A DNA stretch of 64,000 bases from Lachnospiraceae bacterium (GTDB lineage: Bacteria; Bacillota; Clostridia; Lachnospirales; Lachnospiraceae): positions 1-64,000 of the forward strand of contig JAEELW010000152.1 in the NCBI GenBank assembly GCA_016282915.1, in the 5' to 3' direction. The position numbers were made by a program, and so were the translations under genes. Below the pieces are notes generated by a model. That model ran no database searches, was not told the origin of the DNA, and worked only from the letters and a program-made list of their open reading frames with translations. Shown one piece after another: positions 14,325 through 52,466 of the stretch. The stretch's first letter is position 1; every line of letters starts with the position of its first letter.

Positions 14325-14556
14325 GGGTTCAAAGCTCATAAGACGATCATGCTTGCATGAAGCGGCTTATGAGTTTGGAACCCGAACGAACATGAACAAG
14401 TAGCGGGATGCATGTAAAACATGCATCCCAGCGGATTGTGAATGGTCGTAGTATTGCGGGATGCTACGAACACTTGGCGAATGCGTAGCATGAGCTTAGT
14501 GTAAGTGTATGCGTAGCGAAGCGAAGCTGTGCGTAGCACGCAGCAATACGTATCAT
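14325..14556 (+). repeat. Family A structured repeat, copy 1 (fliE-fliF spacer)
   Basis: Module 1 is a long hairpin: GGGTTC (14325)/GAACCC (14378), CTCATAAG (14335)/CTTATGAG (14366), and TCATG-CTTG-CATGA at the tip. Module 2 contains the 11-bp stem GGGATGCATGT (14405)/ACATGCATCCC (14419). Module 3 is closed by GTATTGC (14451)/GCAATAC (14543) and contains ATGCTACG (14461)/CGTAGCAT (14484). The same three modules recur in other spacers with different but still pairing arms. This copy has the longest inner arms. Confidence 0.75.
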
Positions 14557-14600
14557 CGTTCAAAAAGATCATTCGATAGATATAAAAAGGAGTAAAGAAC

Positions 14601-16220
14601 ATGGTAGATCGAATCCTGAGCTGGATCAGAGGTATACCCAGACGTTTTCTGGACTGGTGGGAGAAATTTTCCAAACGGCAGAAACTGATCATCGCAGCAC
14701 TGGCAGCGCTGACGGTGATTGCTTTTGTCGGGCTCATCATCTGGCTGACCAAACCGGAATATGTCACGATCCATACAGCCTCCTCCGCAAAAGAGGCCAA
14801 CGAAGTGATCGGACTGCTCACCGGGGATGATATCGATTATAAGACCAGCGAAGACGGCCTTCAGATCCAGATCAAGCGTGGGGATTATACCAAAGCGGTG
14901 CTGCTCCTTGGCAGCAATTCCATCTCCACCGACAATTTCTCCATCGATAACGTGACCGACGGCGGCTTTTTCTCTACCGAGAGCGATACGCAGAAGCGTT
15001 ATATTGTCTATCTCGAACAGGAACTGGAATCAAATCTGGAAGGACAGGATTTTGTCCGCAGGGCGGATGTAAAGCTCCACATTCCCGAAGAGAACGGTAC
15101 GTTGATTGCGCAGAATAAAGAGAGTTATGCGGCAGTGACCCTGGAGCTTTCCGATGCCTGCAGCTTTGATCAGGCAGGGGCCATGGCCAGAGTCATCGCA
15201 ACAGCCCTCGGCAATGATACGACCAAGAATATTTCCATCATGGATACCAGCGGCCGCCTGCTTTATGCAGGCTCGGAAGAGAGCGAAGCCTCCTCTTCCC
15301 CTGCCGGTTTTATGACGCTGGCTTCCCAGCAGTCCCGTGCGATGGAAGCGGATGTAAAGCGTGCGCTGCTCGGCATGAACCAGTTCTCCGGCATCGAGGT
15401 GGCGGCGAATGTAGTGATCGATTCCTCCAACACCACAGAAACCTGGCATGATTATTCCAATACCGAAACCGAAGGGGACGGCGTGCTGGCCAGCCGTGAC
15501 CAGTACAACAGCCAGACCACCGGTTCCACCGGCGGCGTACCCGGGACCGATGCCAATACGGAGAATCCGGGGACCACTTATGTGTACGAGAACCAGTCCC
15601 AGAACAGTTCCATCGTGACCGAGCTCAGCGAAGATTTCCTGCCCGATGAGCATATCAAGACGCAGGAGCGCCGGGCCGGCGGCATCGACTGGGAGAATTC
15701 CTCTATCACCGTCACGCTTCTGACCTACAAGATGATCTATGAAGATGATGTGCAGGAAGCAGGCGATCTGGAAGGGATCACCTGGGCACAGTATAAGCTG
15801 GCCAATGACACCCGTACGGAGCTGGAGGTGCCGCAGAACCTGATCATGGCGGTTTCCAATGCTTCCGGTATCGCCGCGGGCAAGATCTCCGTGCTTTCCT
15901 ATGAACAGCCTTTCTTCGTAGACCACGAAGGACTGAACATTAAGATGACGGATGTGCTGCAGATCATCCTGATCGTACTGATCCTCGGACTGCTGGCCTT
16001 TGTGATCCTGCGCAGCATGCGCCAGGCACAGGTGGAGGAGCCCGAACCCGAGATCAGCATCGACGACATCCTGCAGAGCACCCAGCCGGAGAGTGAACTG
16101 GACGAGATCGGCGTGGAGGACAAATCCGAAGCGCGCAAGATCGTCGAAAAATTTGTGGAAGACAATCCGGAGGCCGCTGCGAATCTTCTGCGCAACTGGC
16201 TGAACGATGATTGGAGTTAA
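14601..16220 (+). CDS. fliF: Flagellar MS-ring protein FliF
   Basis: 539 aa inner-membrane ring on which the flagellum is built. N-terminal membrane helix at about 32-54, the ring-building domains after it, a Ser/Thr/Asn/Gly-rich loop in the middle (about 270-330), a second membrane helix near 452-474, and a C-terminal cytoplasmic tail that should bind FliG, ending Leu-Leu-Arg-Asn-Trp-Leu-Asn-Asp-Asp-Trp. Normal length. AAAAAGGAG precedes ATG; fliG starts 6 bases after the stop. Confidence 0.97.
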   Translation: MVDRILSWIRGIPRRFLDWWEKFSKRQKLIIAALAALTVIAFVGLIIWLTKPEYVTIHTASSAKEANEVIGLLTGDDIDYKTSEDGLQIQIKRGDYTKAVLLLGSNSISTDNFSIDNVTDGGFFSTESDTQKRYIVYLEQELESNLEGQDFVRRADVKLHIPEENGTLIAQNKESYAAVTLELSDACSFDQAGAMARVIATALGNDTTKNISIMDTSGRLLYAGSEESEASSSPAGFMTLASQQSRAMEADVKRALLGMNQFSGIEVAANVVIDSSNTTETWHDYSNTETEGDGVLASRDQYNSQTTGSTGGVPGTDANTENPGTTYVYENQSQNSSIVTELSEDFLPDEHIKTQERRAGGIDWENSSITVTLLTYKMIYEDDVQEAGDLEGITWAQYKLANDTRTELEVPQNLIMAVSNASGIAAGKISVLSYEQPFFVDHEGLNIKMTDVLQIILIVLILGLLAFVILRSMRQAQVEEPEPEISIDDILQSTQPESELDEIGVEDKSEARKIVEKFVEDNPEAAANLLRNWLNDDWS

Positions 16221-16226
16221 AGTCAC

Positions 16227-17243
16227 ATGGCATCATCAAACGACAACAGCTTAACAGGCACACAGAAAGCGGCCATACTGCTCATCGCCCTCGGACCGGA
16301 GATGAGTTCGACCGTTTTCAAGCATTTAAAAGAAGAAGAGATCGAGGACCTGACACTGGAGATCGCGAATACGCGCAGCATCTCTCCCCAGGTGAAGGAA
16401 GACGTGATCAATGAATTTTATGAGATCTGTCTGGCTCAGCAGTATATCGCCGAAGGCGGTATCGGCTATGCAAAGGAATTGCTGGAAAAGGCACTGGGTG
16501 CGGACAAGGCTCTGGATGTGATCGGAAAGCTCACTGCTTCGCTGCAGGTGAAGCCTTTTGAATTTGTGCGAAAGACCGATGCGACCCAGCTTCTGTCCTT
16601 TATCCAGGACGAGCATCCCCAGACCATCGCCTTGATCCTTTCCTATCTGTCACCGCAGCAGAGCGCCCTGATCATCTCGGCGTTGCCGCAGGAGAATCAG
16701 GCGGATGTAGCCAGGCGTATCGCGACCATGGACCGTACCAGCCCAGACGTGATACAGGAGGTGGAGCGCGTGCTGGAGAGCAAGCTGGCAAATCTGGTGA
16801 ACCAGGACTATACGCAGATCGGCGGCGTGGATCAGGTGGTGGAGATCCTGAATACCACCGACCGCGGTACCGAAAAGCATATCATGGAGATCCTGGAGAT
16901 CGAAGATCCCGAACTGGCCGACGAGATCCGCAAGAAGATGTTCGTCTTCGAGGATATCCTGCTTCTGGACAACAAAGCGATACAGCGTGTGCTGCGTGAT
17001 GTAGACAATAATGATCTGGAACTGGCACTCAAGGGTACCAACGAGGAAGTGCAGAATGCGATCTTTACCAACCTGTCCAAGCGTCTGGCCGAGATGATCA
17101 AGGAAGACATGGAATTCATGGGGCCTGTGCGTATGAAGGATGTGGAAGATGCACAGCAGAAGATCGTGAATGTCATCCGTAAGCTGGAGGATTCCGGTGA
17201 GATCATCATATCCCGTGGCGGAGGTGACGAGGTCATTGTCTAA
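16227..17243 (+). CDS. fliG: Flagellar motor switch protein FliG
   Basis: 338 aa, normal length. Component of the C-ring that contacts FliF and the MotA stator. The EHPQ-Thr-Ile-Ala-Leu-Ile-Leu-Ser-Tyr-Leu armadillo motif is in the middle domain (about 130). The charged torque helix in the C-terminal domain contains Asp-Asn-Asn-Asp-Leu and a Lys/Arg/Glu pattern. The end overlaps the TTG start of fliH by 8 bases. Confidence 0.97.
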   Translation: MASSNDNSLTGTQKAAILLIALGPEMSSTVFKHLKEEEIEDLTLEIANTRSISPQVKEDVINEFYEICLAQQYIAEGGIGYAKELLEKALGADKALDVIGKLTASLQVKPFEFVRKTDATQLLSFIQDEHPQTIALILSYLSPQQSALIISALPQENQADVARRIATMDRTSPDVIQEVERVLESKLANLVNQDYTQIGGVDQVVEILNTTDRGTEKHIMEILEIEDPELADEIRKKMFVFEDILLLDNKAIQRVLRDVDNNDLELALKGTNEEVQNAIFTNLSKRLAEMIKEDMEFMGPVRMKDVEDAQQKIVNVIRKLEDSGEIIISRGGGDEVIV

Positions 17244-18072
17244 TTTCATCAAGGGCGGCTACGTGAATGTAGCATCCGGCAAAAAGCTGACCATCAATTC
17301 CAATGATTTTGTAGAAAAACGGCTGGAAGAGCTGCGGGCCAGTCTGGTGGAAGAGCCTGTGGAGAGCTTTCAGGAAGGCTTCTCGGAAGGGCTGGATCCG
17401 CTCCTGGTAGACCGTCTGATCTCTACCGAGGAAGAGGATGCCGCAGTGATCAAAGCCGGCGGTGCCCTGACGCGCGAGGATTTTCAGGCGCGTACGAAAG
17501 AAGCCGAGCGGGAAGCGGAGAATATACTGGAAGCAGCAAAGCAGGAAGCCGAGCAGATCCGCGGAGCCGCCAGGGATGAAGGCAGGGCCGAGGGCTACAG
17601 GGAAGGAAAACAGCAGGCGGAAGAAGAGTGCCGCAGGCATTATCAGAAAAAGGAACAGGAATGTGAAGAACGTGCCGCTGCGGCGGAACGTGATTTTTTG
17701 AAAAAATGCGAGGAACTGGAGCCGATCCTGGTTGACAAGATCAGCGGCATCTATGAAAGGGTGACCGGCGCGAGGCTTGAGAATGACAGGGATACGGTGC
17801 TCTTTCTGCTGAAGAGGGCATTGACGGGTTCCGATTCCGGACGCGACTATATCGTACATGTTTCTTCCGCGGATTATGAGAATGTAAAGGCGCAGAAGGA
17901 AGAGGTGGCAAAGGGCACGGGGATACTTCCGGAGAACTTTGAGATCGTGGAGGATTCCACGCTTTCACCCAATGCCTGTCTGATCGAGAGCGAAGGCGGT
18001 ATCTGGGACTGCTCCCTGGGAACGCAGCTTCAGCTCCTTACGCAGCAGTTAAAGATCCTGAGCTATGAATGA
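17236..18072 (+). CDS. fliH: Flagellar export regulator FliH
   Basis: 278 aa from TTG 17236 (Met-Ser-Asn-Phe-Ile-Lys). A GAGGTGA site at 17221-17227, inside the end of fliG, lies 8 bases before it; the longer upstream reading frame lacks such a site. The central region is a long Glu/Ala/Lys coiled coil (about 85-180) and the C-terminal region resembles FliH/YscL, the regulator of the FliI ATPase. It overlaps fliI at its end (ATG at 18065). Confidence 0.85.
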   Translation: MSNFIKGGYVNVASGKKLTINSNDFVEKRLEELRASLVEEPVESFQEGFSEGLDPLLVDRLISTEEEDAAVIKAGGALTREDFQARTKEAEREAENILEAAKQEAEQIRGAARDEGRAEGYREGKQQAEEECRRHYQKKEQECEERAAAAERDFLKKCEELEPILVDKISGIYERVTGARLENDRDTVLFLLKRALTGSDSGRDYIVHVSSADYENVKAQKEEVAKGTGILPENFEIVEDSTLSPNACLIESEGGIWDCSLGTQLQLLTQQLKILSYE

Positions 18073-19366
18073 ACTGAACCTGGACAAATATGACGCGGCC
18101 GAAAAACTCTATTACCGGCGGCTCGGCAAGATCGTAAATGTAGTGGGACTTACACTGGAGAGCGCCGGGCCCGATGCAAAGATGGGCGATATGTGCCGGA
18201 TCACGACAACGGATGGCCATATGATCATGAGCGAGGTTGTGGGTTTCAAAAACAACATGACGCTGCTCATGCCCTACGAGGCGACGGAGGGGATCGGCGC
18301 CGGCTGTGTGGTGGAAAATATGGAGCGTCCCCTTTCCGTACAGGTGGGGGATTTTCTTTTGGGTCAGATCCTTGACGGACTGGGAAGGCCCATTTCGAAG
18401 TTTACGCCCAGCGGCGAGACTTGGTATCCGCTGGATGCCAAAAGTCCGGATCCCATGACGCGTACGATCATCAGCGAAGCCCTTCCGCTTGGGGTGAAAG
18501 CCGTGGACGGGCTGATCACTGTGGGCAAGGGACAGCGTATCGGGATCTTTGCCGGCTCCGGTGTGGGGAAATCCACGCTTATGGGTATGTTTGCGAGAAA
18601 TACGCAGGCCGAGCTTAACGTGATCGCACTGATCGGCGAGCGTGGCAGGGAAGTGCGCGAATTTATCGAACGCGACCTGGGCCCCGAGGGGATGAAGCGC
18701 AGCGTCGTGGTCTGTGCCACCTCGGACAAACCGGCCCTGGAACGTAAAAAAGCCGCGCAGACGGCCACGGCCATCGCGGAATATTTCCGTTCCAAAGGCA
18801 AAGACGTACTTCTGATGATGGATAACCTGACCCGTTTTTCCATGGCGCAGCGGGAGATCGGTCTTGCGACCGGCGAACCTCCCGTGACCCGCGGCTATCC
18901 GCCCAGCGTGTATTCCGAGATGCCCAAGCTTCTGGAAAGGGCCGGACGCGACGATAAAGGCTCCATTACCGGCCTTTATGCGGTGCTGGTGGACGGCGAT
19001 GATTTCAACGAGCCCATCACCGATACGGCCCGCGGTATCCTGGACGGGCATATCATGCTGAACCGGCGTCTCGCGGCAAAGGGACATTACCCGGCCGTGG
19101 ATGTGATGCTTTCCATCTCACGATGCATGAGCATGGTGACCAGCAGTGAGCACCGGAAGGCGGCTACGAAGCTGAAGAGTGTCATGGCCACCTATGATGA
19201 GGCGGAAGACCTGATCAATATCGGTGCCTATAAAAAGGGATCCAATAAAAATATCGATTATGCCATTGACAAGATCGATGCGGTAAACGATTTTCTCTGC
19301 CAGGATGTGAATGAGAAATTTGATTTTGAAGAGACCGAGCAGCTGCTGGAAGGGCTTTTCAAGTAA
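18065..19366 (+). CDS. fliI: Flagellar export ATPase FliI
   Basis: 433 aa F1-beta-like ATPase that energises export of rod, hook and filament subunits. Walker A GSGVGKST at 164-171; Walker B region with Leu-Leu-Met-Met-Asp-Asn-Leu-Thr-Arg-Phe; conserved Pro-Pro-Val-Thr-Arg-Gly-Tyr-Pro-Pro-Ser-Val stretch. Overlaps fliH by 8 bases, suggesting coupled translation with its regulator. Confidence 0.98.
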   Translation: MNELNLDKYDAAEKLYYRRLGKIVNVVGLTLESAGPDAKMGDMCRITTTDGHMIMSEVVGFKNNMTLLMPYEATEGIGAGCVVENMERPLSVQVGDFLLGQILDGLGRPISKFTPSGETWYPLDAKSPDPMTRTIISEALPLGVKAVDGLITVGKGQRIGIFAGSGVGKSTLMGMFARNTQAELNVIALIGERGREVREFIERDLGPEGMKRSVVVCATSDKPALERKKAAQTATAIAEYFRSKGKDVLLMMDNLTRFSMAQREIGLATGEPPVTRGYPPSVYSEMPKLLERAGRDDKGSITGLYAVLVDGDDFNEPITDTARGILDGHIMLNRRLAAKGHYPAVDVMLSISRCMSMVTSSEHRKAATKLKSVMATYDEAEDLINIGAYKKGSNKNIDYAIDKIDAVNDFLCQDVNEKFDFEETEQLLEGLFK

Positions 19367-19392
19367 GCTGTTGAAGGTGTAAGGTACAGGAT

Positions 19393-19878
19393 ATGGCGCG
19401 CTTTCGATATCGCATGCAGAATATACTGGAACTCAAGGAAAAGCTTGAGGAACAGGAACGCAACAATTTTGCGGCCAGAAGACGTGCGCTGGACGAGGAA
19501 GAGGAAAAGATGCGTCTGGTGCTGGATAAGCGGAATGCGGCTGCGGCCGAAGGAAAAGCGCTCCGGAACGGTACGGTCGATATACAGAAGATCAAAGAAA
19601 ACCGGCGCATGCAGGAATACGCGGAAGAAGAAGTGAAACAGCAGCGAGTGAAGCTGAAGGTGGCCGAGAAGAACCTGGATATGGCAAGGCGCCGCATGAC
19701 GGAAGCCGTCCAGGAAAGAAAGATCCATGAAAGGATGCGGGAGAAAGCTTTTGAACGCTTTGTTGCCGAAGTGAACGCCGCGGAGGTCAAGGAGATCGAC
19801 GAGCTGACCTCCTATGTATACGGAAATAAAAATGACGCAGACAGCGATAAAAGATCTGCAGAAGAGGAAGAGGGTTAA
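19393..19878 (+). CDS. fliJ: Flagellar export chaperone FliJ
   Basis: 161 aa, almost entirely a charged coiled coil (Glu/Lys/Arg/Ala), starting Met-Ala-Arg-Phe-Arg-Tyr-Arg-Met-Gln as in FliJ. FliJ works with FliH and FliI as the stalk-like subunit of the export ATPase. Assignment rests on the N-terminal pattern, coiled coil, length and position after fliI. Confidence 0.85.
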   Translation: MARFRYRMQNILELKEKLEEQERNNFAARRRALDEEEEKMRLVLDKRNAAAAEGKALRNGTVDIQKIKENRRMQEYAEEEVKQQRVKLKVAEKNLDMARRRMTEAVQERKIHERMREKAFERFVAEVNAAEVKEIDELTSYVYGNKNDADSDKRSAEEEEG

Positions 19879-19881
19879 AAG

Positions 19882-20733
19882 ATGGCGGACGATCTGAAAG
19901 AACAAAAGAAAAAAATCGCCGATGAAAAAAAGAAGCTGAAGAAAGAACAGGAGACCCAGAAGAAAGAAGCGAAGAAACGCGCAAAGGAACTGGCGGATCA
20001 GGAAGCCGAACTGGAAGGTGAAACAACAGGCGGCGGGATCTCGATGTTTTTTGTCACGATCTTCATCATCGTGATCTGGCTGGGCATACTCATCGTTCTG
20101 GTCAAGCTGGATGTGGGCGGTTTCGGCAGCGGCGTACTTGCGCCCGTGCTCAAGGATATCCCCGTCATCAACAAGATCCTTCCGAGGGATACCACGACCG
20201 AGACAGACGATCTGGAAGCGTATTACGGCTATACTTCGCTGGAAGATGCCGTGGACCAGATCCGCGCGCTGGAACTGGAGCTGCAGAGCGCCCGTACCGC
20301 CAATGACACCTATGCCCAGGATGTGACGCTCTTAAAGGGCGAGGTCGAAAGACTCAAGACCTTTGAGGACATGCAGAAGGAATTTGAAAAGATCCGTTCA
20401 GAATTCTATGAGCAGGTGGTCTATGCCGAAAACGGTCCCGGTCCCGAGGAATACCGGAAATATTATGAAGCGATGGATCCCGCCACGGCGGAATATCTGT
20501 ACCAGCTGGTCGTCAAGAGCAGCGCGGCTTCCGCACAGATGCAGGAATACGCAGCGGCTTATGCCGCCATGAAGCCGGAGGAAGCGGCTGCCATCTTCAA
20601 TACCATGGGCAATTCCCTCGAACTTGTCGGCGAGATCCTCTGGAGCATGACCAGCGCCCAGCGCGGCGCCATCCTTGCGCAGATGGATCCCGACATCGCC
20701 GCACAGGTGACCAGGTTGATGGATCCGGAGTGA
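19882..20733 (+). CDS. MotE/YlxF-like flagellar protein
   Basis: 283 aa. A strongly basic/acidic coiled N-terminus (1-45), one membrane helix (about 53-73), a coiled coil (about 115-150), and a C-terminal MgtE-N-like helical domain (Ala-Met-Lys-Pro-Glu-Glu-Ala-Ala-Ala-Ile-Phe-Asn-Thr-Met). This is the layout of YlxF/MotE, found between fliJ and fliK in Firmicutes and linked to stator stability in some species. It begins 4 bases after fliJ. Confidence 0.75.
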   Translation: MADDLKEQKKKIADEKKKLKKEQETQKKEAKKRAKELADQEAELEGETTGGGISMFFVTIFIIVIWLGILIVLVKLDVGGFGSGVLAPVLKDIPVINKILPRDTTTETDDLEAYYGYTSLEDAVDQIRALELELQSARTANDTYAQDVTLLKGEVERLKTFEDMQKEFEKIRSEFYEQVVYAENGPGPEEYRKYYEAMDPATAEYLYQLVVKSSAASAQMQEYAAAYAAMKPEEAAAIFNTMGNSLELVGEILWSMTSAQRGAILAQMDPDIAAQVTRLMDPE

Positions 20734-20747
20734 TATAGGAGACAGAG

Positions 20748-20893
20748 GCGGTCACCGCTTTTTCTGCTTGCAGAAAAAAGCAGTGACCGCTTCTGGAACC
20801 GAACAGACCTGAGCAAGGAGCGATCCGCGAAGCGGAGAAGCGGATTGCGAAGGTCTGTAGGATCGCGGGAGTTGCGAAGCAACGGAGCAATCC
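20748..20893 (+). repeat. Family A structured repeat, copy 2
   Basis: Module 1: GCGGTCAC (20748)/GTGACCGC (20783) enclosing GCTTTTTCTG-CTTG-CAGAAAAA, with the same CTTG loop as copy 1 but unrelated arms. Module 2: CAGACCT (20804)/AGGTCTG (20851) around ATCCGC-GAA-GCGGA. Module 3: GGATCGC (20860)/GCAATCC (20887) with one mismatch, enclosing GTTGC-GAA-GCAAC (20871-20883). Confidence 0.8.
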
Positions 20894-20920
20894 GTATATC
20901 ACGAAGGATGCTGGTATTTT

Positions 20921-20973
20921 CAGACCTGAGCGAGGAGCGATCCGCGAAGCGGATCAGCGGATTTGCTTTTTTT
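20921..20973 (+). terminator. Family A half-copy ending in a T-tract (terminator-like)
   Basis: Starts CAGACCTGAGCGAGGAGCGA like module 2 of copy 2 and contains GATCCGC-GAA-GCGGATC. AGCGATCCGC can instead pair with GCGGATTTGCT around one bulge, and a run of seven or more T follows. A truncated repeat may thus act as an intrinsic terminator or attenuator in front of fliK. Confidence 0.5.
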
Positions 20974-21045
20974 ATTCTAAAGGATTTCCTTATTCTGTTC
21001 GATAAATAAGTTGAATGATTTTTCACCTTAAAAGGAGGATATCGA

Positions 21046-28082: not shown

Positions 28083-28598
28083 ATGAAAAAGAATCTCTTA
28101 TCCATCGTTATCCTGTCGCTTCTGATCGTCAATATCGTATTGACGGCGATCATGCTCTTTTCGGTGATCGGAACGAATAAAAGGACAGCCGAGATCGTGA
28201 CGGATATCGCGGGGATACTGAGTCTGGAGCTCGGCACCGAGCCCGGCGGACAGACCGGCATGCCTTCTCCCGAGGATTCGGAATTCTACACCATACCGGA
28301 AATGACCATTACCACGAAGCGTGCGGAAGGTCAGGAAAAAGATACCTACTGCATGATCGCCATTACGCTCTCGATCAATAAGACCCACGAAAAATATGCA
28401 ACCTTCGGGGGTGAGGCGATGGGGAATTATGTGGACCTGATCAAGGGTGAGATCTTTGCCGTGATCGGACAGTATACGGCAGACGAGATCCGTCTCATGC
28501 AGGATGATATCCGCGAAGAGATCCTGAAGCGTGTCCAGAGCCGCCTCGGATCGGATGTGGTCTACGATATAACCATTTCCAGTATTATGTTCGGATGA
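28083..28598 (+). CDS. fliL: Flagellar basal body-associated protein FliL
   Basis: 171 aa. One N-terminal membrane helix (about 5-27), then a periplasmic-type domain and the C-terminal pattern Ile-Arg-Leu-Met-Gln-Asp-Asp-Ile-Arg-Glu-Glu-Ile-Leu-Lys-Arg-Val of FliL. FliL supports stator function. Lies between motB and fliM as in related genomes; AGAGGAGG precedes ATG. Confidence 0.88.
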   Translation: MKKNLLSIVILSLLIVNIVLTAIMLFSVIGTNKRTAEIVTDIAGILSLELGTEPGGQTGMPSPEDSEFYTIPEMTITTKRAEGQEKDTYCMIAITLSINKTHEKYATFGGEAMGNYVDLIKGEIFAVIGQYTADEIRLMQDDIREEILKRVQSRLGSDVVYDITISSIMFG

Positions 28599-28603
28599 TG
28601 CCA

Positions 28604-28785
28604 GGGGCCAAAACTCATGCCCCGGTCATGCTTGCATGAAACGGGGCATGAGCTTGGGCCCCGATCCGAACATGAGCAAGAAGCGATCTGCGAAGCAGAT
28701 CAGCGGATTGCGAATGTTCGTAGAATCGCGGGAGCGTCGAAGACGCGGAGCGATTCGTGGGCATCATCAATGTAGATTATTCATG
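28604..28785 (+). repeat. Family A structured repeat, copy 3
   Basis: Module 1: GGGGCC (28604)/GGCCCC (28657), CTCATGCCCC (28614)/GGGGCATGAG (28643), tip TCATG-CTTG-CATGA. Module 2: CGAACAT (28667)/ATGTTCG (28714) around GATCTGC-GAA-GCAGATC (28685-28701). Module 3: GAATCGC (28723)/GCGATTC (28750) around GCGTC-GAA-GACGC (28734-28746). All stems are perfect. Confidence 0.85.
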
Positions 28786-28786
28786 G

Positions 28787-28936
28787 TCATGCTTGCATGA
28801 AACGGGGCATGAGCTTGGGCCCCGATCCGAACATGAGCAAGAAGCGATCCGCGAAGCGGATCAGCGGATTGCGAATGTTCGTAGGCTTGCGGGAGTGCGA
28901 AGCACGTAGCAAGCCGTAGGCATCATCAAAGTAGAA
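28787..28936 (+). repeat. Family A structured repeat, copy 4 (tandem)
   Basis: Tandem repeat of the previous copy at a 161-base offset, starting at the TCATGCTTGCATGA tip, so it lacks the left arm of module 1. Module 2: CGAACAT (28828)/ATGTTCG (28875) around GATCCGC-GAA-GCGGATC. Module 3: GGCTTGC (28884)/GCAAGCC (28909) around GTGC-GAA-GCAC. Stem changes from copy 3 occur in pairs. Confidence 0.85.
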
Positions 28937-28958: not shown

Positions 28959-29089
28959 TCTCGCAGTCCGGCGATCCCTGCGAGACCCTTTGCGAGCGTC
29001 GGCGCTTAGCGAGCACGAAGTGCGAGTTTAGCGTCCGCTACGTGAGCAACGGCGCGGGAGCATGTCGAGCAGGGACACCGGCTGTGAGA
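28959..29089 (+). repeat. Family B structured repeat, copy 2
   Basis: Nested closing stem: TCTCGCAG (28959)/CTGTGAGA (29082), CCGG (28968)/CCGG (29078), TCCCTGC (28975)/GCAGGGA (29069). The inside matches the fliK-flgD copy closely and has an extra GCAC-GAA-GTGC hairpin. Confidence 0.8.
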
Positions 29090-40040: not shown

Positions 40041-40055
40041 GAGCAGTTGTAACAG

Positions 40056-44517: not shown

Positions 44518-44532
44518 TTCGGGGTATAAAAG

Positions 44533-45018: not shown

Positions 45019-45019
45019 G

Positions 45020-45313
45020 TTGGCAGAGAAAAATACGGTCGATCCGCAAAAAAGAAATAATCTTAAGACAAAGCTCCTGCCGTCGCTGTTCATGCTTCTG
45101 GGCGGATCCATTGCGCTGATCTATGGCCTGGTACAAGAGTATCCGATGACGGAGCTTTTGCTTGCGATACTGATTGCCATGTTTGTATTTGCGATCATAG
45201 GGACTGTGATCAAGAGTATCATCGACAAGTTCAACATGAAGATGAATTATGCGGACTATATCGAGGAGGCCGGAGATCTGGTCGAGAAAGGCAATAACGA
45301 CGATTTTGGTTGA
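45020..45313 (+). CDS. Small two-helix membrane protein between cheD and sigma-28 gene
   Basis: 97 aa from a TTG start one base after the cheD stop, with AAGGTGATC upstream. Two membrane helices (about 20-40 and 45-67), then a basic/amphipathic segment and an acidic tail. I do not recognise the family. Its tight position between cheD and the sigma factor gene suggests co-expression with chemotaxis; function unknown. Confidence 0.7.
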   Translation: MAEKNTVDPQKRNNLKTKLLPSLFMLLGGSIALIYGLVQEYPMTELLLAILIAMFVFAIIGTVIKSIIDKFNMKMNYADYIEEAGDLVEKGNNDDFG

Positions 45314-45362
45314 GTAATGAAGTGTTGTTCTGAAATTCTACGATAAAAGGATGTATTGAAGG

Positions 45363-46130: not shown

Positions 46131-46141
46131 GAGGACTGCTT

Positions 46142-47725
46142 ATGAACCCCTATTTTCAGGTCATTATCCATGACAGCGGCACTTTTTTAAAACTGATCCC
46201 CGGAACGGGGGGCTCTCTGCCTTCCCTGCAGGAGACCATGAATTATCTGGATGTCAAAAAAGTTACATATGACGTGGGGGTTCTCGGTGCGTTTTTTAAG
46301 CAGGGTGATCCGGAGAAGCTGATCCCGCTGAACAAAACAAAGATGCTCCCCATCGCGGAAGGCAGCATCATACGCATCAGCGATGACCGGCTTACGGCTA
46401 CAGCGCGTTTTTATCCGCCTTCCACCGGCGGGCGCGAGCTGCGTCTCGATGATATCTACAGCGAATGCCGCCTGGCCAAGGTGGTCTCGGGTGTGGATGA
46501 GGATGTCCTGAAAGGCTTCCTTGCAGACAAACAGTACTGTACGGATTATGTGATCGCAAAAGGAACTCCTGTCACCGAAGGCAGCGACGCATGGATCGAA
46601 TATCATTTTAATACCGATAACCGTATCCGTCCGACCCTGAATGAAGACGGGACCGTTGACTTTTTCAACCTGAACCTTGTAAATCACTGCAGTGAAGGCA
46701 TGGTGCTCGCCACCCTTCATCCGGAGGTGAAAGGGGTAGCCGGCCGTGACGTATGCGGAAATGAGATCCCGCCCCGGAATGTGAAACCGGCACATCTTTC
46801 CTTCGGATTAAACATCGAACTGTCGGAGGATAAGCTGACCATACGTTCCAAAGTGAACGGTCACGTGAATCTTGTGGGCGGCAAGGTCTTTGTTTCCGAT
46901 GTGATGCAGGTTGTGAACGTGGACAATTCCACCGGCAATATCGAATATGATGGCAATGTCGTGGTAGAGGGCAATGTGAATTCCAACTTCAGTGTCAAAT
47001 GCAAAGGTGATGTGGAAGTGCGCGGCGTTGTCGAAGGCGCCAGGATCGAGGCCAGCGGCAACATCATCCTGATGCGTGGCATCAACGGGATGAGCAAAGG
47101 CTATCTGAAGGCCGGCGGCAATATCATCGCCAAATTTATGGAAAACTGTACGGCCGATGCCGGCGGTTATGTGGAGACCAATTCGATCCTTCATTCGAAA
47201 GTCCATGCAGGGACCGATATCAATGTGATGAGCCGCAAAGGCTTCATTACCGGCGGTGAAGTGGTGGCTACGGGGCAGGTACGTGTGCGTACCCTCGGAA
47301 GCACCATGGGAGCCGACACCCGTGTAACAGTGGGAACGGATCCAACCCTTTTATCACGCATGGGTGAGCTGAACAAGGAGATGCAGGATCTCCAGAAGAA
47401 TCTGAAAACTATGATACCGGTTCTCGAGGGCGCCAAAAAGAAGCTGGCCGCCGGAGTCAAGATGACGCCGGATCAGGTCAAACAGGTACAGGCGCTCGCG
47501 GCAAACATCAAGGCCACGCAGGAAAAGCTTGTTTCGGACAACGCCGAGCTCGATGAACTGAAAGGACGGATGGAAGAAGGCGCCAATGCTTCCGTGAGCG
47601 TGAGCGGAGAAGCTTATCAGGGCGTGGTGATCTCGATCTCGGATGTGTCGATGATCCTGAAGGATACGGTAAAATACTGCCGCTTCGTCCGCGAAAAGGG
47701 AGACGTGCGTATCGCGGCCCTGTAA
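46142..47725 (+). CDS. FapA family (DUF342) protein
   Basis: 527 aa. The N-terminal domain (about 1-190) precedes a right-handed beta-helix-like region (about 210-405) made of short Gly/Val/Asn repeats such as Gly-Asn-Ile-Ile-Leu and Gly-Gly-Asn-Ile-Ile-Ala-Lys, then a helical coiled region (about 405-480) and a small C-terminal beta domain. This is the DUF342/FapA layout, common in flagellar clusters of Firmicutes; its biochemical role is not settled. AGGAGGACTGCTT precedes ATG; 11 bases after the sigma gene. Confidence 0.85.
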   Translation: MNPYFQVIIHDSGTFLKLIPGTGGSLPSLQETMNYLDVKKVTYDVGVLGAFFKQGDPEKLIPLNKTKMLPIAEGSIIRISDDRLTATARFYPPSTGGRELRLDDIYSECRLAKVVSGVDEDVLKGFLADKQYCTDYVIAKGTPVTEGSDAWIEYHFNTDNRIRPTLNEDGTVDFFNLNLVNHCSEGMVLATLHPEVKGVAGRDVCGNEIPPRNVKPAHLSFGLNIELSEDKLTIRSKVNGHVNLVGGKVFVSDVMQVVNVDNSTGNIEYDGNVVVEGNVNSNFSVKCKGDVEVRGVVEGARIEASGNIILMRGINGMSKGYLKAGGNIIAKFMENCTADAGGYVETNSILHSKVHAGTDINVMSRKGFITGGEVVATGQVRVRTLGSTMGADTRVTVGTDPTLLSRMGELNKEMQDLQKNLKTMIPVLEGAKKKLAAGVKMTPDQVKQVQALAANIKATQEKLVSDNAELDELKGRMEEGANASVSVSGEAYQGVVISISDVSMILKDTVKYCRFVREKGDVRIAAL

Positions 47726-47788
47726 ATGCCGCTGCAGATCAAAAGGCGCGTATTTACTTACAGCTGTTTTTGAAAAGGAGGCGTGGCT

Positions 47789-48091
47789 ATGGCGATCGGA
47801 ATGGTGGAAATGCAGGGGATGATCAACCGTACCCAGGATTTTCAGCAGTTTCAGCATTTTGAAAATGAAAAAGCGGCCCTTTATCAGAGCAATCAGCAGG
47901 TACAGGTGGATCAGAATGTGGAACGCAATATTAATCAGGTCCACGAAAAGGATAATGCCGCAGAAAACAATAATGCCGACGGCGGCGACGGGAAACAGTA
48001 TGCAAACGGACGCGGAGCCCGGCAGAAGAAAAAGGCTGCCGAGGACAGGGTGGTAAATAAATCCACCATGGCATTTGATGTCAGGATATAG
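47789..48091 (+). CDS. Small polar Gln/Asn-rich protein of the flagellar cluster
   Basis: 100 aa from ATG 47789, 7 bases after AAGGAGG (an in-frame GTG at 47783 is too close to it). Soluble, strongly polar, with a Gln/Val/Asn-rich middle and a basic Arg/Lys stretch near the end, closing Met-Ala-Phe-Asp-Val-Arg-Ile. No known family recognised. The good ribosome binding site and gene-like spacing make it a real gene in my view. Confidence 0.7.
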   Translation: MAIGMVEMQGMINRTQDFQQFQHFENEKAALYQSNQQVQVDQNVERNINQVHEKDNAAENNNADGGDGKQYANGRGARQKKKAAEDRVVNKSTMAFDVRI

Positions 48092-48128
48092 AAAAAAATT
48101 TAGACTATTCAGATAAAGAGGAAAGACA

Positions 48129-49766
48129 ATGACTACACTGGAAATCTTACTGCTGGTGGCCGGCGGGCTGGCTTTCATCAGCAGCTTTTTCCTGCCCGAC
48201 GGGAAAAAAGCACAGAATGCCGAGATCTCCGAAGAGGAATTACGGGCCAGAGTGGATGAGGCGATCGAGAACAGCCGCGCGCGCATTGACGATATGAGTG
48301 AGGAGTCCATACGTTATTCGATGGAGCGGACGGAACGCGCACTGGACAAGATCACCAATGAGAAAATGATGGCTCTGGGCGAATACTCCGACGCGATCAT
48401 GAATCAGATCGCACAGAATCATCAGGAGACGGTATTCCTTCACGACATGCTCAACCGGAGCAAGGATGAGCTGACCGAACTTCTGAACCGTGCGGAAAAA
48501 GCTTCCCGAGAAGCCGATAAGCGTGCGAACGACGCTTATGATCTGGCCAGAAACGCCGAAAAGCTTGCTGAAGAGGTGAAAGGGCAGGTAGAAGAATACA
48601 GCAGCCAGGCCTATGCTGCCGAAGAAAAGATGATCGATGCACGCCGTATGATGCAGGAGATGCCTGTACGGCGTGAAGAACTTTCGAGCCAGGCGGACAG
48701 CCTGGTACGTGCCGTGGAACTGAAGTCCCGCGAAGAGTCGGAAATGCAGGATGAAGAGGATGAGGCTGCCGGGGAAGAGTATCCCGAAGTCTTCAGTATA
48801 ACGGAGGCGAAAGCGGAGCCTGTTCGGGAGGAAGTACCCGAAGAGGCAGCCGATGAGCTTTCGCTTCATACCGAAGAAGCGGCTTATGCGGAGAAAGAAC
48901 GCAGCGCTTTTGAAGAAGTCAGTGAAGCACTCGCTCTTGCCACTGAAGAATATGTATCGGATCTTCAGGAGGCGGAAGGCCGGAAAGAAGCGCCGGTGGA
49001 AGATACGCTGGCAGCGGAAGCAGCAGCTGCGGAAGAAGATCTGGAAGCCGGTGAGGACGTGCTCCCCGAAAGCGCGATCGAGATCACAGAGGATGAGCCG
49101 AAAGAGGAAGTGCTTTCGGAAGAAGAAAAAATGGAGCGCATCCTGCAGGCGGCAGCCGCAGAACTGGCGAGCGAGCGGAAGCGTCCTCTTCCGGTGGCAA
49201 AACGTCCGCAGCCGCTAAGGGAACGGCCCGTAAGTGAGGCGGCGAAAGCAGCACCCGCAAAAGCGGAAGCGGTAAAGAGCGTATCCGTGAAGACGGAAAG
49301 CGTAAAAACAGCGGCTGCAAAGACCGAGACCGTGCAGCCGGTGGCAGAGAAGCATTCCGTTGCGGCGGCAAGGGCGCTGCTTGAGAGTGTCAGCAAGAGC
49401 AGCCCGGCACTCGGAGAGGATTTTGCGGGAGGAAAACGTCCCGTGGCCGGAGAACGCGTTTCACGTACCAGCGTCAAGCGCAAACCCCGCAACAGTGTGA
49501 AACGTTCTGCGATGAACGATATGGTAAAGGGGCAGATCAGCACGGATGAATATCTTTCCCAGAAAGATGCCCAGAAAGAAACAACTCCGCGTGCCAGGGA
49601 AGCCGTCACGCTTCAGTTTGCTCCCGGCGAGAATTCCGCCAACCATAACGAGCGTATCCTGCAGATGCACCGCATGGGCCGTTCCAACATGGCCATCGCC
49701 AAAGACCTCGGCCTTGGCATCGGCGAAGTGAAGCTGGTTATTGATCTTTATGAAAACATGTCATGA
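48129..49766 (+). CDS. DUF6115-like membrane-anchored coiled-coil protein
   Basis: 545 aa. One N-terminal membrane helix (about 5-22), a coiled coil (about 35-185), a long acidic Glu/Ala-rich low-complexity region (about 200-340), a basic Lys/Ala/Val-rich region, and a C-terminal helix-turn-helix-like segment (His-Asn-Glu-Arg-Ile-Leu-Gln-Met-His-Arg-Met-Gly-Arg-Ser-Asn-Met-Ala-Ile-Ala). The ends match the DUF6115 pattern. Its position after the sigma-28 gene is like that of swrB in Bacillus, an inference from location and from the N-terminal anchor only. Confidence 0.65.
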   Translation: MTTLEILLLVAGGLAFISSFFLPDGKKAQNAEISEEELRARVDEAIENSRARIDDMSEESIRYSMERTERALDKITNEKMMALGEYSDAIMNQIAQNHQETVFLHDMLNRSKDELTELLNRAEKASREADKRANDAYDLARNAEKLAEEVKGQVEEYSSQAYAAEEKMIDARRMMQEMPVRREELSSQADSLVRAVELKSREESEMQDEEDEAAGEEYPEVFSITEAKAEPVREEVPEEAADELSLHTEEAAYAEKERSAFEEVSEALALATEEYVSDLQEAEGRKEAPVEDTLAAEAAAAEEDLEAGEDVLPESAIEITEDEPKEEVLSEEEKMERILQAAAAELASERKRPLPVAKRPQPLRERPVSEAAKAAPAKAEAVKSVSVKTESVKTAAAKTETVQPVAEKHSVAAARALLESVSKSSPALGEDFAGGKRPVAGERVSRTSVKRKPRNSVKRSAMNDMVKGQISTDEYLSQKDAQKETTPRAREAVTLQFAPGENSANHNERILQMHRMGRSNMAIAKDLGLGIGEVKLVIDLYENMS

Positions 49767-49778
49767 ATGTTTTTTAGA

Positions 49779-49812
49779 GATGCGAGAGTGCGAAGCACGG
49801 AGCAATCCGTAG
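49779..49812 (+). repeat. Family A repeat fragment (module 3 only)
   Basis: Contains GAGTGC-GAA-GCAC-GGAGCAATCCGTAG (GTGC at 49788, GCAC at 49795) and the right closing arm GCAATCC, as in module 3 of the other copies; modules 1 and 2 are missing. It lies just upstream of the stalk protein gene. Confidence 0.65.
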
Positions 49813-49850
49813 ATCATGAGATAATTAAATTTTTTGTTTTGAGGTATAAT

Positions 49851-50615
49851 ATGAGACTTTCATCCTACATGCGCGGCATCGGGATCGGGATCGCGGTGAC
49901 TGCATTGATCCTGCATTTTACAGATGGCCGAGCCAGTGCGATGAGCGACGGACAGCCCAAAAACGACACAACAGTCAGCAGCAATGCGCCCGAAAACGTG
50001 CATGAGCGTCTGGCAACGCCTACGCTTTCCGCCAATAATGTGCTTACTCTTCCGAATGTGGGAGAATCCGGTATTCCGGATATCCTGTCGGAATCTCTGA
50101 AGCAGCAGAACGGAGCTGCGGACAGTACGCCGACAGCTGCGGAGCCTTCTGCGGAAGACCCTGCGCCTACTACGCCTTTGGTGATCAGTCCCACCCCGGA
50201 GGGCGGACAGGCCGCTACGGAGACACCCACTCCGGCACCCACGGCAACTACGGCACCGACGGCGACACCCACGCCGGAACCGACACCTACGCCGAAACCG
50301 ACGGCAACGCCGACTCCGACACCGACGGTCACTCCCACACCGACGGCTACGCCGACGCCGGTTCCTTTGTCAGAGGATACGGAGGGCGGCAGAAAGAGTC
50401 TGAATACCGGAGATGTTGAGATCACCGTGGTTTCCGGTGACGGTTCCTATACGGTGGCAAAACGTCTGGCGGAAGCGGGCATTGTTTCATCGGCTGCGGA
50501 ATTTGATGAATTTCTCTGTAAGAACGGTTATGACAGAAAGATCGCGGTGGGAAAACATGTGATCCCCGCACAGTGCAGTTATGAAAGGATCGCACAGATC
50601 CTCACCGGGAAGTAA
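49851..50615 (+). CDS. Anchored or secreted protein with Thr-Pro stalk and MltG/YceG-like N-domain
   Basis: 254 aa from ATG 49851 (GAGGT just before it); the longer in-frame reading from 49767 runs through a repeat fragment. A membrane anchor or signal segment lies at about 10-30. Residues ~90-185 are rich in Thr, Pro and Ala, with a run of Thr-Pro-Thr repeats at ~125-185, like a cell-wall-spanning stalk. The C-terminal ~60 residues resemble the small LysM-like subdomain of YceG/MltG lytic transglycosylases (Thr-Val-Ala-Lys-Arg-Leu-Ala-Glu-Ala-Gly-Ile-Val, then Tyr-Glu-Arg-Ile-Ala-Gln-Ile-Leu-Thr). The catalytic domain is absent, so an enzyme role is unlikely. Confidence 0.6.
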   Translation: MRLSSYMRGIGIGIAVTALILHFTDGRASAMSDGQPKNDTTVSSNAPENVHERLATPTLSANNVLTLPNVGESGIPDILSESLKQQNGAADSTPTAAEPSAEDPAPTTPLVISPTPEGGQAATETPTPAPTATTAPTATPTPEPTPTPKPTATPTPTPTVTPTPTATPTPVPLSEDTEGGRKSLNTGDVEITVVSGDGSYTVAKRLAEAGIVSSAAEFDEFLCKNGYDRKIAVGKHVIPAQCSYERIAQILTGK

Positions 50616-50633
50616 TAAGAAAATCAGCCCGCT

Positions 50634-50849
50634 TCAGGGATCTTCAAAGACAGGAATACCCGACTCGTCCGAAAGTACCATATTTTGGACGAGTTTTTCT
50701 TTTTCGGAAACCGCATCATCATAGCCGCTTAAGGCGGCAAAGGGCGAAAACTGCGCGGCGCGGTCGTGCATGCTCATATGCGGTCTTGTTTTGGATGTGT
50801 AATGCTCGTGATCGATGATATCGTCGTATTCGTGTTCTTTTCCGTTCAT
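50634..50849 (-). CDS. Small YolD-like partner of the Y-family polymerase
   Basis: 71 aa on the minus strand, overlapping the polymerase stop by 4 bases (ATGA), so translation is coupled. Contains Met-Ser-Met-His-Asp-Arg-Ala-Ala-Gln-Phe-Ser-Pro-Phe-Ala-Ala-Leu-Ser-Gly-Tyr, a motif I associate with small proteins next to Y-family polymerases in Clostridia; the YolD assignment is tentative. Rich in His, Asp and Glu. It converges with the stalk protein gene, 18 bases away. Confidence 0.6.
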   Translation of the reverse strand: MNGKEHEYDDIIDHEHYTSKTRPHMSMHDRAAQFSPFAALSGYDDAVSEKEKLVQNMVLSDESGIPVFEDP

Positions 50850-52291
50850 GCCCGGTGACCTCCGATCTGTCCGTTGCGTTCCCTGGCCGTGGAAGCTTTA
50901 TTGAAATTGGTTCCTTTCAGCAAGGCGTTCTTTCCGTATTTTTCACGGATCTTCAATGTGGCCAGCTGCAGGGCGTGCTCTTTTTCCAGAGCCTCTTCCT
51001 CACGGGCTTCCTCCCGGCTTCTGGCTTCATAATCCGTAAAAAGATCCAGCTGTTCGTACTCGTGTTCTTTTTTCTCCGGCAGACTGCCTTCGGGAAGCAC
51101 ATGCTCCGCGATGACATTGACGCGGCGGATCAGAAGCCGCGGATCCGTGACACGTTCATAGATCTCCAGCGCCGCATCGATCATGAGTCGTGAAGAAGCG
51201 CAGCGCCGGGGGAGATGGGCGGAACCGTGGGCCGGTTTCGGGACGGCCCGGTCGTAGCGGTCCAGGCATACCTCTCCCTTATAGTCTTTCCGGAGCTCGG
51301 GATCCTTTAAGCTTTCGGTATCGTAGCCGATGTGAAGTACCAGCTGGTCGCAGTCCAGACGTTTTTCGACGAGCTGCAGGCTCAGCCCGTCCGTCATTTC
51401 ACGTACGATCACGGCGGCCTCCTCAAAGGAATAGGGGCGCATGAGTACCTGCCCTGTGCTCAGGGAATTGTTCTGCGGCCGGTAGGCCTTGATCTCGGCG
51501 ATGGTGCAGGGCTCCCAGCCCCAGGCATGGTCGATCAGGAGCTCGGCATTGATGCCGAAGCAGCGGTAGAGCGCATCTTCGAAATGCTCGGAGTAGCGCG
51601 CGATATCCCCCATGGTATAAAGGCCCATATGGGCCAGCCTGCGGGCCGTGCCGTGGCCCACACGCCAGAAATCCGTGATGGGGGTGTGACTCCATAAAAG
51701 ACGCCGGTAGGAATGTTCATTCAGCTCGGCGATACGTACCCCGTCCTTATCGGCAGGCATATGTTTCGCGACGATATCCATGGCGATCTTGCAGAGATAC
51801 ATATTCGTCCCGATCCCTGCTGTGGCTGTGATGCCCGTAGCGTTCAGTACATCCCGGATCATACGCATGGCCAGTTCATGGGCGCTTAAGCCGTAAGTCT
51901 TCAGATAAGCCGTGACATCCAGGAATACCTCATCGCAGGAATAGACGTGCATATCCTCGGGGGCGATATATTTCATATAGATGCCGTAGATCTCCGTGCT
52001 TTTCTGCATATAAAGGGACATCCTGGGGGGCGCGACGATATAGTCGAGATTCAGGGAAGGATTATCGCTGTTGAGTTTTTTTACGGCCTGCACCACTTCA
52101 AAAAGCCTGGGCCTGCCGGGGATGCCGTAGGCCTTCAGAGCCGGGGATACCGCAAGGCAGATGGTCTTGTCCGTGCGCGTCGGATCCGCCACCACCAGAC
52201 GGGTGGTCATCGGGTCAAGGCCGCGCTCGACACATTCCGCCGAGGCGTAAAAACTTTTCAGATCGATCGCGATATAGCTTCGTTCATTCAT
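50846..52291 (-). CDS. Y-family DNA polymerase (UmuC/YqjW-like)
   Basis: 481 aa error-prone lesion-bypass polymerase. Motifs: Ala-Ile-Asp-Leu-Lys-Ser-Phe-Tyr-Ala-Ser-Ala-Glu-Cys-Val-Glu near the start (metal-binding Asp and steric-gate Phe/Tyr), Tyr-Ser-Cys-Asp-Glu-Val-Phe-Leu-Asp (catalytic Asp-Glu) near 115, then Gly-Ile-Gly-Thr-Asn-Met-Tyr-Leu. A clamp-binding motif Gln-Leu-Asp-Leu-Phe lies at 414-418. The only minus-strand transcription unit in the window; a LexA-type box sits in its promoter, fitting SOS induction. Confidence 0.9.
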   Translation of the reverse strand: MNERSYIAIDLKSFYASAECVERGLDPMTTRLVVADPTRTDKTICLAVSPALKAYGIPGRPRLFEVVQAVKKLNSDNPSLNLDYIVAPPRMSLYMQKSTEIYGIYMKYIAPEDMHVYSCDEVFLDVTAYLKTYGLSAHELAMRMIRDVLNATGITATAGIGTNMYLCKIAMDIVAKHMPADKDGVRIAELNEHSYRRLLWSHTPITDFWRVGHGTARRLAHMGLYTMGDIARYSEHFEDALYRCFGINAELLIDHAWGWEPCTIAEIKAYRPQNNSLSTGQVLMRPYSFEEAAVIVREMTDGLSLQLVEKRLDCDQLVLHIGYDTESLKDPELRKDYKGEVCLDRYDRAVPKPAHGSAHLPRRCASSRLMIDAALEIYERVTDPRLLIRRVNVIAEHVLPEGSLPEKKEHEYEQLDLFTDYEARSREEAREEEALEKEHALQLATLKIREKYGKNALLKGTNFNKASTARERNGQIGGHRA

Positions 52292-52323
52292 AGCTGAATA
52301 TACAGAGTAAAGGGTTTGGATTT

Positions 52324-52352
52324 ATTATCGAACAGATGTTTGCAAATGTCAA
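52324..52352 (-). promoter_or_regulatory. Promoter of the Y-family polymerase
   Basis: Read on the minus strand: TTGACA (52352-52347), a 17-base spacer, GATAAT (52329-52324). About 33 bases from the start codon. A LexA box fills the spacer. Confidence 0.75.
52329..52342. promoter_or_regulatory. LexA/DinR SOS box
   Basis: CGAACAGATGTTTG matches the Gram-positive SOS consensus CGAACRNRYGTTYC at 13 of 14 positions. It lies inside the spacer of the polymerase promoter and overlaps the edge of the -10, the expected position for repression by LexA. Confidence 0.8.
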
Positions 52353-52360
52353 GTGGACGG

Positions 52361-52389
52361 TTGACGAAAACAGGATATTTTGTTAAAAT
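52361..52389 (+). promoter_or_regulatory. Sigma-A type promoter of the topoisomerase subunit gene
   Basis: TTGACG at 52361-52366, a 17-base spacer, TAAAAT at 52384-52389. Its -35 is 8 bases from the -35 of the divergent polymerase promoter. The resulting leader of about 150 bases includes a family A repeat fragment. Confidence 0.7.
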
Positions 52390-52410
52390 CCAAATGTTTG
52401 GCACTATATA

Positions 52411-52466
52411 ATGTTTGTAGAATTGCGGGAGCTGCAAAGCAGCGGAGCGATCCGTAAGCATCATAT
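52411..52466 (+). repeat. Family A repeat fragment in the topoisomerase gene leader
   Basis: Begins ATGTTTGTAG (the end of module 2) and continues as module 3 with GCTGC-AAA-GCAGC (52431-52443), GGAGCGATCCGTAAGCATCAT. Closing arms AATTGC/GCGATC pair imperfectly. Confidence 0.7.

Follow-up and report, generated by a model that had tools for sequence, protein, structure and literature searches.

Clostridiales-1 RNA (RF01699) as the probable body of a MITE-like DNA element at gene ends in Lachnospiraceae

Folded repeats of the flagellar region

Contig JAEELW010000152.1 of a Lachnospiraceae bacterium (assembly GCA_016282915.1) carries a flagellar region with fliE (called with NCBIfam TIGR00205) and fliM, and the window analysed here is the whole stretch of its positions 1 to 64,000. 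Structured repeats follow fliE and two other genes of this region, and further pieces lie shortly 3' of the stop of gene 48129-49766 and upstream of a gyrA/parC-type gene (52546-54798). The repeats were read by eye and scanned with cmscan against Rfam 15. Four copies match RF01699 (Clostridiales-1 RNA; Rfam type 'Gene; sRNA', for small RNA) at 79.4-138.2 bits, above its gathering score of 48 bits; E values of 1e-31 to 7e-16 rule out chance, and the agreement covers sequence and fold along all 166 model positions. The repeats are members of this known family, not of a new class. In this article, we propose that RF01699 forms the body of a DNA element, found in Lachnospiraceae and related Clostridia, that is non-autonomous and resembles miniature inverted-repeat transposable elements (MITEs), a reading to which we give a probability of about 0.74.

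A preliminary description, made from the letters of the window, had located these repeats, and both the reading by eye and cmscan find them there. It counted seven copies on one three-module plan, made up of a CTTG-loop hairpin and two stems around GAA-loop hairpins; four of these stand as RF01699 copies, and the intervals beginning at 20921, 49779 and 52411 are fragments. It recognised no known RNA class, naming an existing Rfam family as what would overturn this, and the Rfam check returned RF01699. Statements drawn here from published papers rest on the accessible parts of those texts. In Weinberg et al. 2010, RF01699 is 'probably' an RNA and probably not cis-regulatory (PMC2864571). In the accessible parts of some open-access papers that name Clostridiales-1 RNA, we found the family only listed or counted.

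The features of the window are collected in Table 1. In copy 1, an extra hairpin module (about 14460-14520) interrupts the loop of module 3, so that the real end, judged from the fold, is at about 14562. Copy 4 has lost the left part of hairpin 1, and the arms of its modules 2 and 3 differ from those of copy 3 yet still pair. The model match to the fragment at 49779-49812 starts within gene 48129-49766. Beyond the fragment at 52411-52466, a candidate right terminal inverted repeat (TIR) lies at the expected distance; a reversed-window control gave two equally good matches, so its position alone supports it.

Table 1. Members of RF01699 and associated arms in the window
Feature	Position	Strand	Remarks
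Copy 1, left closing arm TGAACGATGA	14314..14323	+	Exact reverse complement of 14553-14562; includes the fliE stop, 14314-14316
Copy 1, RF01699 element	14317..14562	+	RF01699 79.4 bits over 14317-14502; covariance model R1 133.8 bits
Copy 2, complete	20730..20902	+	RF01699 111.6 bits
Copy 2, closing arms GTGATATA/TATATCAC	20730-20737, 20895-20902		Include the stop codon of gene 19882-20733
Fragment, module 2 only	20921..20966	+	By eye; no Rfam match
Copy 3, complete	28594..28768	+	RF01699 138.2 bits over 28596-28766
Copy 3, closing arms GATGATGCC/GGCATCATC	28594-28602, 28760-28768		Include the last two coding bases and the stop of gene 28083-28598
Copy 4, tandem partial duplicate of copy 3	28768..28936	+	RF01699 83.4 bits over 28768-28925
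Fragment, module 3 at about 49779-49812	49742..49816	+	RF01699 30.2 bits, below gathering score
Fragment, module 3 and right closing arm	52411..52466	+	RF01699 32.5 bits over 52334-52463, below gathering score
Possible right TIR of the 52411 fragment, TGATATCGAAGTCAATC on the - strand	52480..52496	-	4 mismatches to the genus right-TIR consensus

Distribution, ends and insertion sites

The genome of the window has 35 RF01699 matches on many contigs, 22 of them above the gathering score. The genome-wide search proposed in the preliminary description thus returns many copies; the family is present along the flagellar region, as that description had it, but the region is not special. Any match is found in 13 of 40 genomes searched (own genome included) and none in the other 27; among congeners, 11 of 23 have matches and 12 have none. 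Across the order, at E up to 1e-9 and with stricter filters, the family occurs in 18 of 146 genomes (own genome included) and 13 of 93 genera. The named relatives of the window are mostly assemblies of ruminant-gut Lachnospiraceae.

Two sets of copies were used for counting. In the first, 105 of the listed matches were placed, those left out being weak and below the gathering score, and statistics were made on the 81 above it; these 81 come from 12 genomes, one of which (G039) lies outside the genus. The second, held-out set consists of 104 of 109 listed matches in 15 other genomes, four matches at or near contig edges and the sole G095 copy being left out. In the genome of the window, copies of at least 60 bits, a threshold that places most long variants outside the set, are diverged, with a best same-genome identity of 59-89%. 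Of the 17 copies retrieved from genome G139, which belongs to another genus of the same family, 15 have a counterpart there with 92-99% identity, and the remaining two carry inserts and score 80%.

The true ends of the element become visible in G139, where shared sequence extends 16-28 nt beyond the Rfam model. By eye, 12 of the 17 copies carry GGCATCA or GGCATCT followed by 28 nt (type 1) or 16 nt (type 2) up to ACATCA or a near variant. This tail, which repeats the left end in inverted form, is the right TIR; with this, the idea that it holds a promoter (TTGACC...) was dropped. The TIRs of young copies are imperfect and about 17-18 bp long, with TGATGCCAGGGTCAAAAG at the left and a sequence of the same class (TGATGTGGGTGTCAAAAG or TGATGTTGGGGTCAAAAG) at the right. 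A 17-base TIR pattern, searched with at most 2 mismatches, outnumbers its reversed counterpart by 136:1 in G139, 24:2 in the genome of the window, 11:1 in G007 and 2:1 in G057. For many of the matches in G139, the contig begins 55-105 bases away, as though the assembly had broken within copies; the true copy number there may exceed the count, and an autonomous partner could hide in assembly gaps.

A right-TIR screen, applied to 182 of 185 copies, was passed by 26 of them, compared with 8 of 178 in a control stretch. Exact 5-bp direct repeats flank the outer ends of 9 of these 26 copies, against 2.9% in mismatched copy pairs (p 3e-8). Six are in G139 (tttta four times, cttta, taagt) and the others are tataa in G021, taata in G017 and taatc in G007; two more G139 copies (C56 and C27) have exact repeats by eye, yet fall below the TIR screen. 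G000, G007 and G139 also have shorter relatives, 58-81 bp long, in which both ends are the same. With a length of 58-320 bp, the element likely has no coding capacity. In G173, most copies of a subfamily (L388-L402) have a different left end (CTATAAAAGTG), and many share a different 3' tail (GGTATCTGCAAAGCAGAA); the subfamily is often inserted after ..TTA and is never stop-adjacent (0/15).

In the family as a whole, the left end is commonly found at a stop codon. Adjacency was scored when the stop of a same-strand open frame of at least 100 codons ended in the interval from 12 nt before the left end to 8 nt within the element. This holds for 37 of the 81 copies of the first set (observed range -5 to +8), as opposed to 5/81 for the opposite strand at the right end, and the fixed test replicated in the held-out copies (35/104 vs 6/104). 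Within intergenic gaps, 35 of 50 copies are stop-adjacent where even placement would give 12.5, a crude null based on simple open-frame calls. In the window, all three stop-adjacent complete copies include the host stop in their closing arms (TGAACGATGA, GTGATATA, GATGATGCC).

Comparison of orthologous sites indicates the order of events. The gene upstream of copy 3 ends with IMFG in 15 of 30 genomes (own genome included), with other residues closing with G in 10 and with VQ in 5. fliE ends with NMQI at 21 of 29 loci and with NMQF at 5, and the end of gene 19882-20733 is kept in near relatives. Covariance model R1 found copies or remnants at just four of these orthologous sites, fliE in G041 and G013 and gene 19882 in G007 and G045. 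A fourth gene, which we take to be of GyrB type from its C-terminus, ends with LDF before a full element in the genome of the window, and with LDI, LDV or LDY at 29 other loci, one of which (L286) is a more distant paralogue. At none of these 29 loci did R1 detect an element 3' of the gene, its lone match there (L258) being an already counted copy upstream of it. Since the upstream gene ends are kept where the element is absent, the stop codons are those of the host and the element arrived later.

At this GyrB-type locus (C22:19551-19723, L009), the complete element is followed by an unrelated gene. In many congeners, an apparent gyrA start directly follows the GyrB-type gene, and the gyrA/parC-type gene of the window has an element fragment upstream (52411-52546). 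Recombination between element copies may have split the GyrB-type/gyrA pair.

Paired arms, host sequence and modules

The preliminary description had noted that the arms vary between copies and still pair, whereas the loops are kept, and its picture of a dispersed, folded element in many copies with covarying arms and kept loops is supported. For 39 of 48 consensus pairs, at least one of 33 copies has both partners changed. If selection acted on RNA, G-U pairs would be expected to be far commoner than their complement, A-C. A census was therefore made on motif-anchored helices with at least 60% Watson-Crick pairs, covering 63, 47, 46 and 38 copies per helix in the first set and 74, 53 and 27 in the held-out set, where the inner hairpin of module 2 was left out. 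The first set contains 22 G-U and 16 A-C among 1577 pairs and the held-out set 20 G-U and 10 A-C among 1348, a combined ratio of 42:26 (p 0.07). For the helices other than hairpin 1, the ratio is 16:16. In thirty tRNAs of the genome of the window, it is 40:0 among 628 pairs, with G-U making up 6.4% of pairs compared with 1.4-1.5% in the element.

Template switching during replication gives multi-base compensatory changes and reverse-complement repeats at hairpins (PMC8794818). The G-U pairs, scarce and not clearly in excess of A-C, are better explained if the arms are matched in DNA by template switching than if an RNA is selected, although hairpin 1 leans to G-U. Where the preliminary description had offered selection on, or replication through, the folded form, the second part is close to the mechanism that we favour, and RNA-level selection is weakly supported at best.

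In many old copies, the closing stem continues outward past 7 bp into host sequence. When the right flanks of other copies from the same genome serve as the null, extension by at least 4 bp beyond the 7 bp is seen in 6 of 50 copies of the first set (0.72 expected) and in 15 of 78 of the held-out set (2.98 expected). Without G139 and G173, whose subfamilies share longer stems, the held-out figure is 9 of 51 (0.25 expected). An all-genome null gives 7/51 vs 0.53 and 16/80 vs 1.57, values inflated by longer shared stems, above all in G173. At the end of a G000 gene, the extended arms AGGATATGATGCAAC/GTTGCATCATATCCT reach 15 bp, and a perfect arm of 24 bp runs across a gene end in G070. As the host stop lies within the closing arms of the window copies, their right arm reproduces the host site as its reverse complement. 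Two sites are occupied in two species with different extensions, 15 bp in G000 (C137) and 8 bp in G007 (C63) at one, 6 bp in G003 (C34) and 8 bp in G009 (C36) at the other, which suggests growth of the arm after insertion rather than copying at insertion. That host sequence has been copied into the right flank is plain from these arms; template switching would account for it and for the covariation in one process. Gene conversion between copies was rejected as the sole source of paired changes, since it cannot make arms of site-specific host sequence; it could still account for the tandem pair 28596/28768.

Some members reach about 220-320 nt; in these long variants, additional conserved modules separate the two arms of module 2 or precede module 3, and one such module recurs, by eye, in G000 and G139. 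Long variants at five loci of the genome of the window have a 211-base stretch in common at 93-100% identity, so not all copies are old. An Rfam scan of seven loci (long variants and neighbours) returned RF01699, one TwoAYGGAY and otherwise sub-threshold matches only. The family is a mosaic, as are bacterial interspersed mosaic elements (BIMEs).

Several neighbouring repeats were also seen. A second hairpin family (CTTA-CGA ... GAG-TTTAG) occupies 14460-14520 in copy 1 and returns at 28990-29045 before fliM, and modules like it lie inside the long variants L018, L022, L023 and L025-L027. Extra modules at L025:1641-1715 and L026:1640-1713 resemble GA-cis RNA (RF02987) at 31.0 and 28.5 bits, below its gathering score of 34.7; the GA-cis family may share parts with these repeats. 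A TwoAYGGAY RNA (RF01731, 70.1 bits) lies at L172:1247-1409 on the - strand, beside an element remnant. It follows the G007 orthologue of gene 19882-20733 and is a second listed RNA family within this one intergenic space. Finally, the viral contig IMGVR_UViG_3300005511_000062 contains the core pattern of module 2 (L367:4910-4926).

A MITE-like element and its alternatives

We propose the following course of events. Copies are presumably moved in trans by a transposase, young ones often lying between 5-bp AT-rich target duplications. Between the ends, palindromic modules (the CTTG hairpin, the GAA hairpins and optional extras) would give a multi-branched fold. After insertion, the right TIR and the target duplication would decay. 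The palindromic body would persist because each arm serves to rewrite the other, most likely when the replicating DNA strand switches template. By the same process the closing stem would grow outward, host bases adjoining the left end, and even the last bases of the upstream gene, being copied into the flank on the right. Many surviving old copies lie at stop codons and in gene orientation; the TGAT of the left end can itself be a stop, and insertion elsewhere would be harmful. The copies of the window, found where fliE and two further genes of the flagellar region end, would be old members of this kind. The element probably does mostly nothing for its host and is tolerated just 3' of genes. 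Read-through transcription would give strongly folded 3' untranslated regions (3'-UTRs) of fliE and other mRNAs. In E. coli, repetitive extragenic palindromes (REPs) within 15 nt of a stop are reported to reduce translation (PMC12306157); therefore, a REP-like effect is plausible here, and such effects on translation or on mRNA decay are possible.

Several observations weigh against this proposal. The complete copies of the window have neither a right TIR nor a target duplication, and around the 142 copies that lack a right TIR, direct repeats outside the arms are no more frequent than expected by chance; the membership of old copies therefore rests on the homology of their bodies to those of young ones. 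TIRs and target duplications were noticed and counted on the same copies. Among seven short relatives, one has an exact 5-bp repeat, one a 6-bp repeat and the rest none, and no exact 5-bp repeat flanks L027, the one of the five long-variant loci whose right TIR is clear. In the pair census, hairpin 1 alone gives a G-U:A-C ratio of 26:10 (p 0.01), as mild RNA-level selection would, and the tRNA control is partly built in, as ARAGORN presumably accepts only standard and G-U pairs. Finally, no autonomous partner with these ends was found in 20 regions and around one transposase family in one genome. For the 20 regions, TIR pairs were listed, and open frames were read in L468. A 1.4-kb TIR pair in G139 was rejected as an autonomous transposon, the enclosed open frames being read by eye as ordinary chromosomal genes, and no such TIRs lie beside the single DDE_Tnp_1 gene found in G139.

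Among the other explanations, co-option in the 3'-UTR deserves most attention, even if we hold it to be unlikely: whatever its origin, the element would be kept after stops since its hairpin tunes translation or mRNA stability. Such a role agrees with the REP effect near stops (PMC12306157) and with the stop adjacency of both sets and its excess over even placement. It also agrees with the lower adjacency in the young G139 burst (2/17) than in all other genomes (70/168; p 0.018). However, orthologous sites are mostly empty and differ between species, no target is conserved among the four genes tested, and survivorship at a harmless place explains the pattern equally well.

It is doubtful that the arms are made at insertion, by a strand that folds back, primes on TGA or TGAT at the target and copies a host stretch as its right end. 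The long perfect arms over gene ends in G070 and G000, the 142 copies with neither right TIR nor target duplications and the match of stop codons to the TGAT end of the element would all follow from this. On the other hand, the two sites with unequal extensions suggest growth after insertion, and most young G139 copies (12/17 by eye) are ordinary, with a right TIR, though C21, which by eye has no ordinary right TIR, carries a 14-bp arm. We give little credit to the wider claim that most copies used a second transposition route, in which a folded single strand pairs by its TGAT end at the stop and rebuilds its right end each time from a reversed copy of 7-24 host bases. If true, this would be transposition without target duplication, with a terminal repeat made from the target and each insertion carrying its address in the form of an inverted arm.

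A genuine structured RNA gene, that is a trans-acting sRNA whose stems are kept by selection on the RNA, would agree with the Rfam typing, with the word 'probably' in PMC2864571, with the strong covariation and with the excess of G-U in hairpin 1. We judge it improbable in view of the 35 diverging matches in one genome, including fragments and tandem copies, the 27 of 40 genomes without a match, the young copies with TIRs and target duplications, the arms built of site-specific host sequence and the scarcity of G-U compared with tRNAs.

Very improbable is a repeat of REP/BIME type whose single-stranded DNA is moved by a Y1 transposase (REP-associated tyrosine transposase, RAYT). In its favour, GTAG stands beside a bulged hairpin, a REP hallmark, modules are nested and lie 3' of genes, GTAG REPs often provide stop codons (PMC3733652), and a Y1 gene is found about 540 bp away from a weak match (L042 in G039, 25.7 bits). 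Against it, this is the only match at 14 Y1 loci searched (L040-L051, L110, L111). Y1 genes occur in 7 of 13 genomes with the family and in 10 of the 27 that lack it; in G007, which has 22 matches, no Y1 gene reached the threshold used. The target duplications suggest a DDE-type cut.

The MITE-like reading can be set against known repeats, as far as the accessible parts of their descriptions go. GTAG REPs and BIMEs with RAYT are likewise palindromes 3' of genes, with clustered arrays, stop-supplying ends and subfamilies with alternative paired stem residues (PMC3733652). REPs are single palindromes of 20-40 bp, whereas the element has a 166-position body with three hairpins, TIRs, 5-bp duplications and no clear link to or co-occurrence with RAYT. 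GTAG REP families are listed from other phyla, and the accessible text of PMC3733652 does not mention Firmicutes or Clostridi. The bcr1-bcr3 repeats of the Bacillus cereus group are likewise dispersed and MITE-like, often in UTRs and operons, with a TTTAT motif tied to mobility (PMC3446304, PMC6542083). They are confined to that group and were compared by description, and stop adjacency and host-derived arms are unmentioned in what could be accessed of these two papers. Prokaryotic MITEs in general also have TIRs, direct repeats that wane with age, AT-rich targets and stable stem-loops when transcribed (PMC10969869); unlike them, most old copies here have no right TIR, keep the palindromic body and extend the closing stem into the host. 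Template-switch mutations have been shown in the histories of RNA genes, not in a mobile DNA repeat, in the accessible part of PMC8794818. RF01699 itself was described from the same taxa as here, Clostridiales of the gut (PMC2864571); its model ends before the right TIR, so that TIRs and target duplications are invisible in it, and it is listed as a probable RNA and typed as an sRNA. In the open-access papers searched, we found no report of RF01699 as a MITE-like repeat with host-derived arms.

What is probably new is the evidence that the family is a MITE-like repeat in DNA, that its closing arms derive from the host and that selection at the RNA level has left little trace. A family that Rfam accepts as an 'sRNA' resembles a mobile repeat, and its covariation can arise at the DNA level. 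If this is true, covariation and many copies are insufficient to call a repeat a functional RNA, and G-U scarcity, host-derived arms and a search for ends in the youngest genome would be cheap tests for other orphan 'RNA' families. The copies would also be natural material for measuring bacterial template switching at hairpins, in an element family that would live at gene ends and leave the genes unbroken.

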